A DNA stretch of 64,000 bases. Origin: Cryptosporangium arvum DSM 44712. Its GTDB lineage: Bacteria > Actinomycetota > Actinomycetes > Mycobacteriales > Cryptosporangiaceae. Below, piece by piece: positions 52,480-57,289 of the stretch (position 1 is the first letter of the stretch; the number at the start of each line of letters is the position of its first letter). Below the pieces are notes generated by a model. The model was not told the DNA's origin and searched no databases. It worked only from the letters and a program-made list of their open reading frames with translations. The DNA lies in NCBI RefSeq assembly GCF_000585375.1, contig NZ_KK073874.1, positions 372,001-436,000 on the forward strand, read 5' to 3'. Both the position numbers and the translations under genes were made by a program.

Positions 52480-53625
52480 TCACTTGTCGACGTCGCCGAC
52501 GACGAAGAACATCGATCCGAGGATCGCCACCAGGTCGGGCAGCAGCGTGCCCGGCAGCAGCGTCGCCAGCGCCTGGACGTTCGCGTAGGACGCGGTGCGC
52601 AGCTTCAGCCGCCACGGCGTCTTCTCGCCGCGCGAGACCAGGTAGTAGCCGTTGATGCCGAGCGGGTTCTCGGTCCACGCGTAGGTGTGCCCCTCGGGCG
52701 CCCGTACGACCTTCGGCAGCCGGACGTTGACCGGGCCGCCGACCGTGCTCAACCGGTCGAGGCAGGCGTCGGCCAGGTTCAGCGACACGTACACCTGGTC
52801 CAGCAGGATCTCGAAGCGCGCGTGGCAGTCCCCGGCGGTGCGGGTGACGACCTCGAGCACGTCGGCGAGCTCGTCGTAGGCCAAGTACGGCTCGTCGCGA
52901 CGCAGGTCGAAGTCGAGCCCGGACGCACGGGCGACCGGCCCACTCGCCCCGTACGCGGCGGCCACGTCGGGCTCCAGGACACCGATGCCCACCGTGCGCG
53001 CGAGGAAGATGTCGTTCGTCCGGATGATCTTCTCGATGTCGACCATGCGGCGACGGACGTCCGCCACGGCCTGGCGGGCCCGGGTGGTCCAGCCGGCCGG
53101 GACCTCCTCCTTGACGCCGCCGACCCGGTTGAACATGTAGTGCATCCGGCCGCCGGAGGCCTCCTCCATCACCGCCTGCAGCGTCTCGCGCTCCCGGAAC
53201 GCGTAGAACATCGGCGTGATCGCGCCGATCTCCAGCGGGTACGAGCCGAGGAACATCAGGTGGTTGAGCACGCGGTTGAGCTCGGCGAGCAGCGTCCGCA
53301 GCCAGGTGGCCCGCTCCGGTACCTCGATGCCCATCATCCGTTCGACGGCCAGCGCCACCCCGAGTTCGTTCGAGAAGGCCGACAGCCAGTCGTGCCGGTT
53401 GGCCAGCATCAGGATCTGCCGGTAGTCGCGGACCTCGAACAGCTTCTCGGCCCCGCGGTGCATGTAGCCGATGATCGGTTCGGCCGAGATCACGCGCTCG
53501 CCGTCGACCACCAGGCGCAGCCGCAGGACACCGTGCGTGGAGGGGTGCTGGGGACCGATGTTGAGCACCATGTCGGCGGTCGCCAGTTGATCCGCGCCAC
53601 TACCGACGCCTACGGTGAGCTCCAC
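52480..53625 (-). CDS. nuoD: Orphan NADH-quinone oxidoreductase subunit NuoD
   Basis: 381 residues of the 49-kDa/NuoD family: [79 protein letters not shown], and the conserved [17 protein letters not shown] end. In complex I this subunit helps form the quinone pocket next to cluster N2. No other nuo gene is in the window, so it is a second, stand-alone copy. Arg57 (HRG) equals the arginine dimethylated in mammalian NDUFS2. Confidence 0.93.
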
Positions 53626-53662
53626 TCGTTCATCGTTCCAGAACGCGGGTTAGCGTGGGCGG

Positions 53663-54898
53663 ATGACCGGTTCCCTGGCTTCTGCTCCCGCGTTCGACCC
53701 GTGGTCGCCGGAGTTCGTCGCTTGGCCCTACGACGTGTTCGCCGATCTGCGTGAGAACGCGCCGGTCTGGCGGTTCGAACGCACCGGGCAGTGGGTGATC
53801 TCCCGCCACGCCGATGTCGACGCGCTGCTGCGCGATCGCCGCCTCGGCCGGTCCTACCTCCACGTAGCCACGCACGAGGAGATGGGCCACGAGCCACCGG
53901 CCGACCACCTCGAGCCGTTCTGGACGCTGAACAACAACGGGATGCTCGACCGGGAGCCGCCGGACCACACCCGGCTGCGGCGGCTGGTCTCGAAGGCGTT
54001 CACGCCGCGAACCGTGGAGCGGCTCGCCCCGTGGGTGCGTTCGTACACCGAAGGGCTGGTGTCCCAGCTGCTCGACGCGGGCTCGGACGGGTCACCGGTC
54101 GACCTGATCCAGACGGTCGCCGAGCCGCTGCCGGTGGCGGTGATCGCCGAGATGCTCGGGATCCCCGAGGCCGACCGGCATCTCCTGCGGCCCTGGTCGG
54201 CGGACATCTGCGGCATGTACGAGCTGCGTCCTTCGGCGCAAGCGCAGGACAAGGCGGTGCGTGCGAGCATCGAGTTCACCGACTACCTGGTCGCGCTGGC
54301 CGCCGAGCGTCGCCAGAACCCCGGCGACGACCTGATCAGCGCGCTGGCGACCGTGGTGGACGCCGGTGACCAGCTGACCGACCCCGAGCTGGTCGGAACG
54401 TGCGTCCTGCTGCTCAACGCCGGGCACGAGGCGACGGTGAACGTCACCGGCAACGGGTGGTGGGCGCTGTTCCGCAACCCGTCCGAGCTGGCCCGGCTGC
54501 GTGACGGCGAGGTGGGGGTGGGCAGCGCGATCGAGGAGCTGATGCGGTGGGACACGCCGCTTCAGCTGTTCGAGCGCTGGGTGCTCGAGGACATCGAGGT
54601 GCACGGGGTCCGGATCCCGCGCGGCGACGAGGTGGCGCTGCTGTTCGGGTCGGCCAACCGGGATTCGGCGGTGTTCCCCGACGCTTCCCGGCTCGATCTC
54701 GGGCGGACCCCGAACCCGCACATCTCGTTCAGCGCCGGCATTCACTACTGCCTGGGTGCGCCGCTGGCCCGGCTGGAGCTCGGCACGTCGTTCGAGACGA
54801 TGTTGCGCCGTGTGCCGGGGCTGTCACTGGCCGAGGAGCCCCGCTGGAAAGGCGGGTTCGTCATCCGCGGACTGGACGCTCTGCAGGTCACGGTGTGA
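53663..54898 (+). CDS. Cytochrome P450
   Basis: 411 residues, soluble bacterial type. I helix LLNAGHEATVN (Glu256; the usual Thr is Ala257, with Thr258 next), ExxR as ELMR (292-295), heme loop FSAGIHYCLG with Cys363 as iron ligand. A monooxygenase needing an external ferredoxin and reductase; none is adjacent. Divergent from nuoD with 37 bp between starts. Substrate unknown. Confidence 0.95.
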   Translation: MTGSLASAPAFDPWSPEFVAWPYDVFADLRENAPVWRFERTGQWVISRHADVDALLRDRRLGRSYLHVATHEEMGHEPPADHLEPFWTLNNNGMLDREPPDHTRLRRLVSKAFTPRTVERLAPWVRSYTEGLVSQLLDAGSDGSPVDLIQTVAEPLPVAVIAEMLGIPEADRHLLRPWSADICGMYELRPSAQAQDKAVRASIEFTDYLVALAAERRQNPGDDLISALATVVDAGDQLTDPELVGTCVLLLNAGHEATVNVTGNGWWALFRNPSELARLRDGEVGVGSAIEELMRWDTPLQLFERWVLEDIEVHGVRIPRGDEVALLFGSANRDSAVFPDASRLDLGRTPNPHISFSAGIHYCLGAPLARLELGTSFETMLRRVPGLSLAEEPRWKGGFVIRGLDALQVTV

Positions 54899-55120
54899 CC
54901 GGTGTGTCCGGTGTGTAGTCAGGCGATGGCTGCGCATCGTCCGGTTCCGCCACGAACGAGCGCGCGCACATCGTAGGGTGTCTGCCAACTCGGTTTGCCC
55001 CGGTGCTGCTTCGGAGCAGAAGATGTCCGCACCGGACGGAGCGTGGCCACGCCGAGGTGGCCCGAGGGGCGCGCAGACGGGTCAGGGAACGAGTCTCGAG
55101 AATCGCTGGGACGGTTGGGC

Positions 55121-56377
55121 GTGAGCTTCGGAGTGACCGACGATGTGGGTGCGAACGGCCGGCACCGAGCGCGCGAGGCTGCGGATCATCCCGAAACTTC
55201 TCGGCGTCGTTCGCGGCGGGAATCGTGGGACAGCCCGCCGTCGGTGAGCGAGCCTCGGCGGCGTCCGGACCCGCTGACCGATCCGCTCGGGGCGTTGGAA
55301 TCGCCGGATCCGCTCGGCGGTGAGCGGCCTTCCCGGCGCGAGCGGCGGGCGTCGTTCGGTGATCCCGACGAGATCACGCCGGGCCGGGCGGTGGCGCGGC
55401 GCGAGGACCCGTCGCGGGGCGCGGCCCGAGAAGGACGCCGGAGCCACTCCGACGAGCTCGAGCGGCCCCGGCGTGTGCCGCAGCAGCGCCGCCCCGAGCC
55501 CGCCGACGACGAGTACGACGGCCGGGTCCTGCCCCGCCGCCCCGACCGCCCCCGCGGTGCCGACGACTCCCTGCGTCGCAGCGGCGAGATCACCGACCGG
55601 CCGCGGAGCGCCCCCGACCCGGGCGAGCGCCCGCGCCGGAGCATCGACGCGCCCGACCGCCCCCGCGGCGTCGCCGACACCGGGGACCGCATGCGTCGCA
55701 GCGGCGAGATCACCGACCGGCCGCGCGGCTCGGCCGACACGGGTGACCACCTGCGTCGCAGCGGCGAGATCACGGATCGCCCGCGTGGGGTCAGCGACAC
55801 CGGTGAGCGCGCCCGGACGGCGGCTCGCGCGTCGGTGCCGGTGGCCGGTCGGGCGGTCGTCGGGGAGCCGATGCGCCCCGACGCCGCCCAGCGCACGTCG
55901 GGTCGGATCGTGTCGGTGCCGGAGCGCGCCCGTTCGGCGCGCAGCGCTCCCGCCGTGAGCCGGACCCCGACCGGTGAACCCGAGGCCATCCGCCGCATCA
56001 ACCCGTTCGACCTGCCCGCGCCGCGCGGCTACTCGCACGCGACGATCGCGACCGGCCAACTCGTCTTCCTGGCCGCGCAGTGCGGCGTCGACCTCGACGG
56101 CCGGATCGTCGACGGCGGGCTGGTCAGCCAGTTCGACCGCGCGGTCCAGAACCTGCTCTCCGCGCTCGCCGCCGCCGGGGGTTCGGCCGAGCACCTGGTC
56201 AGCATCACCGTCCAGGTCACCTCGATCGACGACTACAAGGCCAGCTCGCGTCCGATCGGGCACGTCTGGCGCGCCCGCCTAGGCGGGCTCATGCCGGCCC
56301 TCTCGGTCAGCGAGGTTCGCCGCTTCTGGGACGCCGAGGCCGAGATCCAGATCGCGGCCCAGGCCGTGCTCCCCTAG
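55121..56377 (+). CDS. Disordered Arg-rich region fused to a RidA-fold domain
   Basis: 418 residues from GTG 55121. The first ~290 are disordered, rich in Arg, Pro and Asp, with four 20-residue repeats (RRSGEITDRPRG-type). The last ~125 are a RidA/YjgF domain: YSHATIATGQLVFLAAQCGVD, FDRAVQNLLSALAAAGGSAEHLVSITVQVTSIDDY. The catalytic Arg of imine deaminases, in the motif A-R-V-E, is replaced (DAEAEIQI), so deaminase activity is unlikely. The upstream start is uncertain. It overlaps the convergent methyltransferase by 99 bp. Confidence 0.75.
   Translation: MSFGVTDDVGANGRHRAREAADHPETSRRRSRRESWDSPPSVSEPRRRPDPLTDPLGALESPDPLGGERPSRRERRASFGDPDEITPGRAVARREDPSRGAAREGRRSHSDELERPRRVPQQRRPEPADDEYDGRVLPRRPDRPRGADDSLRRSGEITDRPRSAPDPGERPRRSIDAPDRPRGVADTGDRMRRSGEITDRPRGSADTGDHLRRSGEITDRPRGVSDTGERARTAARASVPVAGRAVVGEPMRPDAAQRTSGRIVSVPERARSARSAPAVSRTPTGEPEAIRRINPFDLPAPRGYSHATIATGQLVFLAAQCGVDLDGRIVDGGLVSQFDRAVQNLLSALAAAGGSAEHLVSITVQVTSIDDYKASSRPIGHVWRARLGGLMPALSVSEVRRFWDAEAEIQIAAQAVLP
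55574..55813 (+). repeat. Four 60-bp tandem repeats
   Basis: Four 60-bp units in frame, each coding for 20 residues beginning RRSGEITDRPR (second copy RRSIDAPDRPR) and ending with DTG or DPG plus a variable pair. Confidence 0.9.
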
Positions 56378-57289
56378 CAGCCAGTAGAACGATCCCAGGC
56401 CGTCGGGCGCCAGCAGCTCGGCGGCCCGGGACGCCGAGCCGAGCGCACGCAGGTACCGCGCCGGGTCGGCGCTCGCCAGCTCGCGTGGCGGCAACCCACC
56501 GGAGACGCCGAGCGCGCGCAGCACGTCACGCTGGCGCCGCAGCACCGCACCGGGTGCGAGCGAATCCATCGCCACGTGCGCGGTGAGGTCGCAGCTCCCG
56601 TCGGGCACCGGCGGCACCTGCCGCCCGTCGCGGTACCCGGTGAGCGTCCCGCCGGCCGGCCGCGCACCGGCCACGTGCCCGTAGTCGACGGCGACGGCCA
56701 GCCCGCGCCGTACCCGCCCCGCAGCCGCGGCCCAGGCGGCGTCGCGCGCCGACCCGATCTCGGCCCGGTCTCCGGGTGACCGCAGCGGCCACCACCGGGC
56801 GAGCCAGGCCGCGTCGTCCCCCGAGACGACGTCCCCGAGCGATTCGTCGCCCGACGGCGACACCAGCACCAGCCGGTCGGCCCCGGACTCGTCCCGGCAC
56901 GCCACGTCCACCGGCACGTTGTCGAGCCACTCGTTCGCCACGAGCAGCCCGGTCACCGGGGGAATCTCCGGGCCCCACCGGTATCCGACGCCCGGCGGGC
57001 GCGGTCCGCGCTCCACCGCGGTCAGCCGCAGCCGCCGCGCCATCCCCGAGGGCACCGAGAGCGCGGAGAGCAACTCTCCACCGCCGGCCCCGACGTCCAC
57101 CAGGTCGAGCGGATCCGGCCGCTCCAGCGCGTGGTCGACCCGCGCGAGCAGCTCCCCGATCGCGTCCGCGAACAGGTCCGCCGCCGCGTGCACCGACGTG
57201 CGGAAATGGGCCGCCGGTCGGTTCACGACGTAGAACCCGGCCGACCCGTACAACGCGTCCTGCGCCGCCGACCGCCACGAAACCGCCAC
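56279..57289 (-). CDS. MidA/NDUFAF7-family SAM-dependent methyltransferase
   Basis: 336 residues from GTG 57289. The start GSAGFYVVNRPAAHFRTSVHA, the SAM motif LVDVGAGGGELLSAL, LLVANEWLDNVPVDV, LAVAVDYGHVAG and GTLTGYRDGRQVPP with DLTAHVAMDSL follow MidA step by step. MidA/NDUFAF7 methylates an arginine of the complex I subunit NDUFS2. The orphan nuoD gene 2.7 kb away encodes the homologous subunit. That link is inference. Confidence 0.85.
   Translation of the reverse strand: MAVSWRSAAQDALYGSAGFYVVNRPAAHFRTSVHAAADLFADAIGELLARVDHALERPDPLDLVDVGAGGGELLSALSVPSGMARRLRLTAVERGPRPPGVGYRWGPEIPPVTGLLVANEWLDNVPVDVACRDESGADRLVLVSPSGDESLGDVVSGDDAAWLARWWPLRSPGDRAEIGSARDAAWAAAAGRVRRGLAVAVDYGHVAGARPAGGTLTGYRDGRQVPPVPDGSCDLTAHVAMDSLAPGAVLRRQRDVLRALGVSGGLPPRELASADPARYLRALGSASRAAELLAPDGLGSFYWLLGEHGLGRDLDLGLGVPEAANLADREGRHEPA

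Follow-up and report, generated by a model that had tools for sequence, protein, structure and literature searches.

A MidA-type methyltransferase and the probable displaced NuoD of a second complex I in Cryptosporangium arvum

The role of the NDUFAF7 (MidA) family of methyltransferases has been described in mitochondria, where NDUFAF7 acts for the organelle's one complex I (PMC3829151). In a bacterium, Paracoccus, methylation of the same arginine of the D subunit (NDUFS2) is already known (PMC3750175). In Thermus, a threonine replaces the dimethylated NDUFS2 arginine and an arginine of the B subunit (Nqo6 R83, a threonine in Yarrowia) fills the same space (PMC8042128). For prokaryotes, the function of MidA is described as derived solely in silico (PMC12455994). 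Streptomyces carries a second complex I cluster, nuo2 (SCO4599-SCO4608), with nuoD2 encoded separately (PMC8388888), and PMC9239103 describes this set as lacking NuoCDEFG and L and its function as unclear. Here we analyse a window of 64,000 bases from Cryptosporangium arvum DSM 44712 (bases 372001-436000 of one 9,195,993-base contig; 9.2-Mb genome), in which a nuoD gene, nuoD2, stands near a gene for a MidA-family methyltransferase.

We consider it likely that this MidA methylates NuoD2, that NuoD2 is a D subunit encoded apart from the rest of its complex, a second complex I that would have no NADH module of its own, and that in many lineages the Q module and MidA alone remain. The evidence in hand is gene content, co-occurrence, a residue switch, a pattern of decay and linkage to korAB genes, and from it we infer methylation, subunit assembly and the electron donor and acceptor. 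The second complex is probably NADH-independent, with its genes scattered over the chromosome.

The second complex I and its probable D subunit

The initial annotation had described NuoD2 as a stand-alone NuoD. For the window this holds, as searches for nuoB, nuoD and nuoH found no nuo gene there besides nuoD2. For the genome it does not. A main nuo operon lies near 8.52-8.54 Mb (locus L046) and contains the one NuoD match that the genome has besides NuoD2, and a second nuo cluster at 8,374,000-8,393,900 (L045) encodes NuoA2, B2, C2, H2, I2, J2, K2, L2, M2 and N2 and no D. NuoD2 is not an orphan, because this distant cluster has no D of its own; cluster and window together encode a whole 11-subunit set (A, B, C, D, H, I, J, K, L, M, N). 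Assignments follow the subunits' own Pfam families for A2, B2, C2, H2, J2 and K2, Fer4 models for I2 and PF00361 for L2, M2 and a partial NuoN2, which runs beyond the fetched stretch. A query for NuoF, the one NADH-module subunit searched for, found nothing in the 20 kb of L045.

In sequence, NuoD2 is a divergent NuoD. It scores 234 bits against PF00346 (cut-off 24) and 378 bits against NF004739 (cut-off 360), and stays below the cut-off of the TIGR01962 NuoD equivalog model (385 vs 459 bits). It is 94% identical to orthologues from the same genus, 87% to those from the same family and 40% to the canonical NuoD of its own genome; a stretch of about 40-45 residues found in canonical NuoD is missing from it.

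With NuoH2 as the marker of the second cluster, we searched 121 genomes of the order and 197 of the class. NuoH2 occurs in 23 of the former, all with NuoD2, and in 53 of the latter, 51 of them with NuoD2; the other two genomes are 72% and 80% complete and carry MidA. In one genome (G033, L090), midA and nuoD2 (here in two frames) adjoin a whole second cluster. These observations fit the view that NuoD2 would supply the D subunit that the second cluster lacks.

The cluster of the window's own genome is itself interrupted. By eye, a TetR-like and an MFS-like gene separate nuoC2 from nuoB2, and genes resembling those of ABC transporters separate nuoB2 from nuoA2 (all within about 8075-13414 of L045). 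A gene of the glutathionylspermidine-synthase type (PF03738, 501 bits; 14969-16129 of L045) lies upstream of nuoA2, with a small open reading frame (ORF) between. Elsewhere, a NuoD2-free genome of family f8 (G007) carries two near-equal main-type nuo sets (C1:1890897-1898858 and C1:2170087-2177807), with nuoB, nuoD and nuoH present twice each.

MidA and the arginine of NuoD2

The initial annotation proposed to look for steady co-occurrence of midA and nuoD across relatives, and the two genes do keep company. The same genomes were searched with NuoD2 (orthologues score above 400 bits, canonical NuoD below 245 bits) and with PF02636, the Pfam family of MidA. In the order, 41 genomes hold both, one NuoD2 alone (G008), one MidA alone (G102) and 78 neither. 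In G102 the start of nuoD2 sits at a contig end directly behind midA; once this cut is counted the figures become 42, 1, 0 and 78. The nuoD2 contig of G008 is merely 3.3 kb long. In the class, the corresponding counts are 74/12/5/106 raw and 80/8/4/105 after a refinement in which fetched loci were read and 15 genomes were searched with a MidA profile, an uneven one in that the exceptions were fetched along with only part of the positives. The co-occurrence is more than chance, since the raw Fisher p, which ignores relatedness, is 5e-30 (order) and 8e-35 (class), and the within-family Cochran-Mantel-Haenszel (CMH) p is 1.8e-5 and 5.4e-5. Gains and losses were judged by this within-family test and on a NuoD2 tree; in family f31, for instance, seven genomes have both genes and eight have neither. 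The named genomes considered were the best 80 among 586 confirmed hits, in the main Micromonosporaceae, Streptomyces and Streptosporangium relatives. In these, Arg57 of NuoD2 is present in 80/80 and MidA in the fetched flank in 77/80, one of the three misses being a 4.8-kb contig.

Shared inheritance of a conserved neighbourhood, with no functional link, could produce such a pattern. In many genomes, the surroundings of the pair are indeed partly conserved, with genes that look by eye like FtsH and like genes of folate, pantothenate and NAD synthesis. However, five order genomes (G045, G069, G104, G118, G025) retain both nuoD2 and midA although the two are separated by about 40 kb or lie on different contigs, and within families the two genes vary jointly, as the CMH test records; we hold this explanation to be very improbable.

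MidA scores 66 bits against PF02636 (Methyltransf_28; cut-off 23.3) and is the sole match to this family in the genome. A relative in the PDB is 1zkd (E 1.2e-9), with which the ANE, DYGH and DLTAHV stretches align. In an alignment of 28 sequences, E120, D202 and G222 are invariant and G69 and G71 nearly so. These stretches and the glycine-rich one for S-adenosylmethionine, also kept, are what we take to be the functional motifs of MidA.

Which NuoD would such an enzyme modify? The initial annotation offered this NuoD or the one in the main complex, and a residue switch keeps the first and makes the second very unlikely. Arg57, in the HRG motif that the annotation rightly gave as intact, corresponds to Arg85 of human NDUFS2 and Arg121 of Yarrowia and aligns with the HRG of solved NDUFS2 chains. 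It is present in 97/97 aligned NuoD2 sequences, while 7/7 canonical NuoD of the same alignment have threonine; the alignment leaves out truncated or contig-end copies (L090, L110, L148, L150, L152) and unfetched positives. One of these copies, a broken-frame fragment in G211 (L148), has histidine in the Arg57 column. The B subunits mirror this. In all 14 main nuo loci read, the main NuoD has threonine and the main NuoB has arginine, in the column that corresponds by count on the alignment to residue 83 (R83) of Thermus Nqo6. NuoB2 has threonine in each of the 48 nuoB2 loci fetched, as found by a pattern in 39 and by reading the sequence in 9. Judged by these columns, cells with both nuo sets hold both switch designs, with the MidA-type arginine on NuoD2 only. 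Thus the threonine of NuoB2, together with the arginine of NuoD2, points to NuoB2, not NuoB1, as the partner of NuoD2. Family membership and the switch taken together make the midA-encoded neighbour very probably the enzyme that methylates NuoD2.

The main NuoD was accordingly set aside as a candidate target, having threonine and not arginine at the site. To be sure, NDUFAF7 serves the single complex I of mitochondria, and the main complex is present in this genome too, so that MidA might have been thought to modify NuoD1, with its place beside nuoD2 incidental. The arginine of the main set is on its NuoB instead, and PF02636 finds nothing in the 78 order genomes that lack NuoD2, though NuoD matches are found in all 121. 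We give this alternative almost no credence.

A second difference concerns quinone. The conserved tyrosine of NuoD is a quinone-site residue (PMC8042128); in its column, NuoD2 has tryptophan (Trp80) in 97/97 sequences, against tyrosine in 7/7 canonical NuoD, so the quinone-site tyrosine is absent from NuoD2. This suggests that quinone handling may be altered, the full form of the complex included.

As for the arrangement, midA lies on the same strand and at most 500 bases upstream of nuoD2 in 28 of the 35 order loci holding both. The seven others include the four genomes of the window's genus, in which a cytochrome P450 gene and a RidA-type gene stand between the two on the opposite strand; in the window, midA is likewise upstream of nuoD2 on the same strand. 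Pfam matches bear out these four genes as first annotated (Table 1). The RidA-type ORF and midA overlap tail to tail, at the 3' end of the latter. Neither intervening gene was retained as part of the module: among the order loci fetched, a P450 next to nuoD2 is confined to the window's genus plus G020 and G013, and a RidA-type gene close to midA to the window's family. A scan of the region for promoters of the sigma-70 type gave no promoter-like site, and a scan for terminators gave one terminator-like site, where shuffled sequences averaged 0.9.

Table 1. Features of the nuoD2-midA region (positions in the window)
Feature	Position	Strand	Basis
nuoD2 (D / 49-kDa subunit, putatively of the second complex I)	52480..53625	-	PF00346 and NuoD NCBIfam models; 381 aa
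Arg57 codon (HRG motif) of NuoD2, presumed MidA target	53455..53457	-	aligns with HRG of solved NDUFS2 chains
Trp80 codon of NuoD2, column of the canonical quinone-site Tyr	53386..53388	-	aligned with Tyr of solved chains
midA (NDUFAF7-family SAM-dependent methyltransferase)	56279..57289	-	PF02636 above cut-off
Cytochrome P450, bystander between midA and nuoD2	53663..54898	+	PF00067
RidA-type domain, bystander	55985..56377, end of ORF 54995-56377	+	PF01042

The Q-module-only form and its proposed electron donor

NuoD2 is also found in 57 genomes without NuoH2 (20 of the order, 37 of the class). When 55 NuoD2 genomes, of which 51 lack NuoH2, were searched with NuoB2, at least two NuoB-family matches came up in 51/55; in the whole order sample, at least two occur in 40 of 43 NuoD2 genomes vs 10 of 78 others. 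The second nuoB locus was fetched for 38 of the 57 genomes, and in 34 of these it is a contiguous nuoB2-nuoC2-nuoI2 trio. In the remaining four, the contig ends after nuoC2 (G135, G008), other genes stand between nuoC2 and nuoI2 (G269), or the locus has the start of a full-type cluster with a broken nuoH2 frame (G149). G149 excepted, no A2, H2, K2 or L2 match was found in the 38 loci. Pfam matches to B2, to C2 and to the iron-sulphur domains of I2 were obtained in two trio loci. Together with D, the subunits B, C and I correspond precisely to the part of complex I for which the term Q module is in use (PMC12142623). The NuoH2-less genomes fall into nine maximal clades on the NuoD2 tree, the largest with 27 members and one of the eight others being G149, with four Fitch changes between the two forms; genus g65 has two genomes with NuoH2 and two without.

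The proteins of the reduced form have decayed in particular places. NuoI2 encoded with H2 genes (8 loci) has a GL..GL...YP-type stretch before the first cluster cysteine, of which six fit YPD and the others read YPH and EYPD; without H2 genes, the YPD pattern remains in 3/35 loci, and only 11-45 residues (median 18; 34 loci) separate the NuoC2 stop from the first cysteine of NuoI2. The PRQAD loop of NuoB2 is present in 11/11 loci with H2 genes vs 2/37 without, these two being the g65 genomes. We read it as the mammalian loop near the quinone tunnel that carries a hydroxylated arginine (PMC3750175). In NuoD2, ten positions within 129-145 are conserved with NuoH2 and lost without it, and His56, Arg57 and Trp80 are invariant throughout. 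By homology, the retained residues would surround the iron-sulphur cluster N2, and the decayed ones would face quinone and membrane.

A soluble enzyme is favoured because the membrane-facing parts have decayed and the surroundings of N2 are retained; short of proof, the pattern speaks for such an enzyme rather than for docking on the membrane arm of the main complex. We suggest, tentatively, that in many actinomycete lineages complex I-2 may be a membrane-free enzyme of four proteins (NuoB2-C2-D2-I2) with its own arginine methyltransferase, fed with ferredoxin from a 2-oxoacid:ferredoxin oxidoreductase, in which N2 and the methylarginine would serve a chemistry other than proton-pumping quinone reduction. 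Another way to read these genomes is that the B2-C2-D2-I2 module shares the membrane arm of the main complex I by docking on it, as a ferredoxin-fed hybrid. The B2-C2-I2 trio often stands directly behind the main nuoN (e.g. L185, L186, L190, L199, L289-L293), and for Streptomyces it has been suggested that the two sets form a hybrid (PMC9239103). Yet the shortened NuoI2 N-terminus, the loss of the PRQAD loop and that of the ten NuoD2 positions all tell against docking, and we find it rather unlikely.

For the four-protein enzyme and the full complex alike, ferredoxin would be the most likely electron donor, given gene linkage to korAB. Genes for a KorA/KorB-type 2-oxoacid:ferredoxin oxidoreductase (PF01855, PF01558, PF02775) lie near nuoB2 in 23/48 loci (17/38 NuoH2-less, 6/10 NuoH2-bearing; about 0.8 Mb fetched), and in 0/169 loci taken as background, which surround nuoD2 or the main operon and total about 3.1 Mb. 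Ferredoxin has been proposed as donor of other complexes without NuoEFG (PMC11238625, PMC8305020). Locus L191 (8642-9100; G299) has fragment-like KorA/KorB matches only, beside nuoB2, possibly a decaying korAB remnant.

Several observations pull the other way from our overall reading. The korAB link is absent in 25 of the 48 loci, that of the window's own genome among them. The E. coli arginine at the site is unmethylated (PMC8042128), so arginine alone is no proof of methylation. MidA without NuoD2 occurs in G185 (94% complete) and in G123, G133 and G221, which are less complete or affected by a contig end. Lastly, five class genomes of at least 96% completeness (G229, G239, G248, G266, G284) keep NuoD2 with Arg57, and neither PF02636, local tblastn nor the A2 profile found MidA in them. 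Their NuoD2 are divergent (41-50% identity), with HRS instead of HRG in three. G134, G198 and G211 also have no full MidA and are 70-78% complete. The loci of the five (L203, L190, L202, L302 and L301, in the order of the genomes above) are of the Q-module-only type.

These five genomes lend some weight to the idea that MidA is an assembly factor specific to NuoD2, whose essential act would be binding or another modification rather than methylation of Arg57; the unmethylated arginine of E. coli likewise implies that Arg57 may matter without methylation. Against this, MidA retains its glycine-rich, ANE, DYGH and TAHV stretches, and midA tracks the NuoD type that has arginine at the NDUFAF7 site. 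We regard this idea as improbable.

Returning to methylation by MidA, we envision the following sequence. MidA would bind free NuoD2 and dimethylate Arg57. The methylated residue would lie beside the N2 cluster held by NuoB2, like Arg85 of NDUFS2 in mitochondria, and permit a stable NuoB2-NuoD2 unit. NuoD2 would then join NuoA2, B2, C2, H2, I2, J2, K2, L2, M2 and N2 in a complex without an NADH module of its own, in which reduced ferredoxin from the KorAB-type oxidoreductase could pass electrons to the two NuoI2 clusters and on to N2. Many actinomycete lineages would have lost the second membrane arm and kept only B2-C2-D2-I2 and MidA. Most surprising to us, the Q module and its methyltransferase survive this loss, in what looks like an unusual enzyme.

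If this is true, MidA in these bacteria follows the arginine-on-NuoD design and not complex I as such. With both NuoB/NuoD switch solutions in one cell, the role of the methyl groups becomes testable within one organism, and the five genomes in which no MidA was found are natural tests of the role of the arginine without the methyltransferase. The Q-module-only form, if a working enzyme, would be a natural minimal electron-transfer core that bears on the modular build of complex I.

Comparison with known systems

The pair resembles NDUFAF7 and NDUFS2 Arg85 of mitochondria (and, for the modification, Paracoccus) in that the enzyme family is the same, as is the HRG arginine beside N2; the arginine is on the D subunit and a threonine on the B subunit in both. 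Unlike in mitochondria, the likely target here is a second NuoD, the main complex is of the opposite, Thermus type, and the methylation is predicted. Moreover, midA is often linked to nuoD2, and no NADH-module gene accompanies the second cluster as far as queried (NuoF).

In gene content, nuo2 of Streptomyces is a second cluster of the same kind, with nuoD2 apart. It differs, as PMC9239103 describes it, in that C2 and L2 are found in the window's own genome and in G137. The accessible text on nuo2 (PMC9239103, PMC8388888) makes no mention of MidA, the residue switch, KorAB or a Q-module-only form.

The full form also recalls the 11-subunit enzymes of Desulfitobacterium, cyanobacteria (NDH-1) and haloarchaea (Nuo), which have no NuoEFG (here NuoF alone was queried) and for which ferredoxin is proposed (PMC11238625, PMC8305020). 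PF02636 also matches in the controls Synechococcus elongatus and Haloferax volcanii. Unlike in those enzymes, the genes here are spread over two loci, the main complex coexists with the second, and in many lineages the second is reduced to its Q module.

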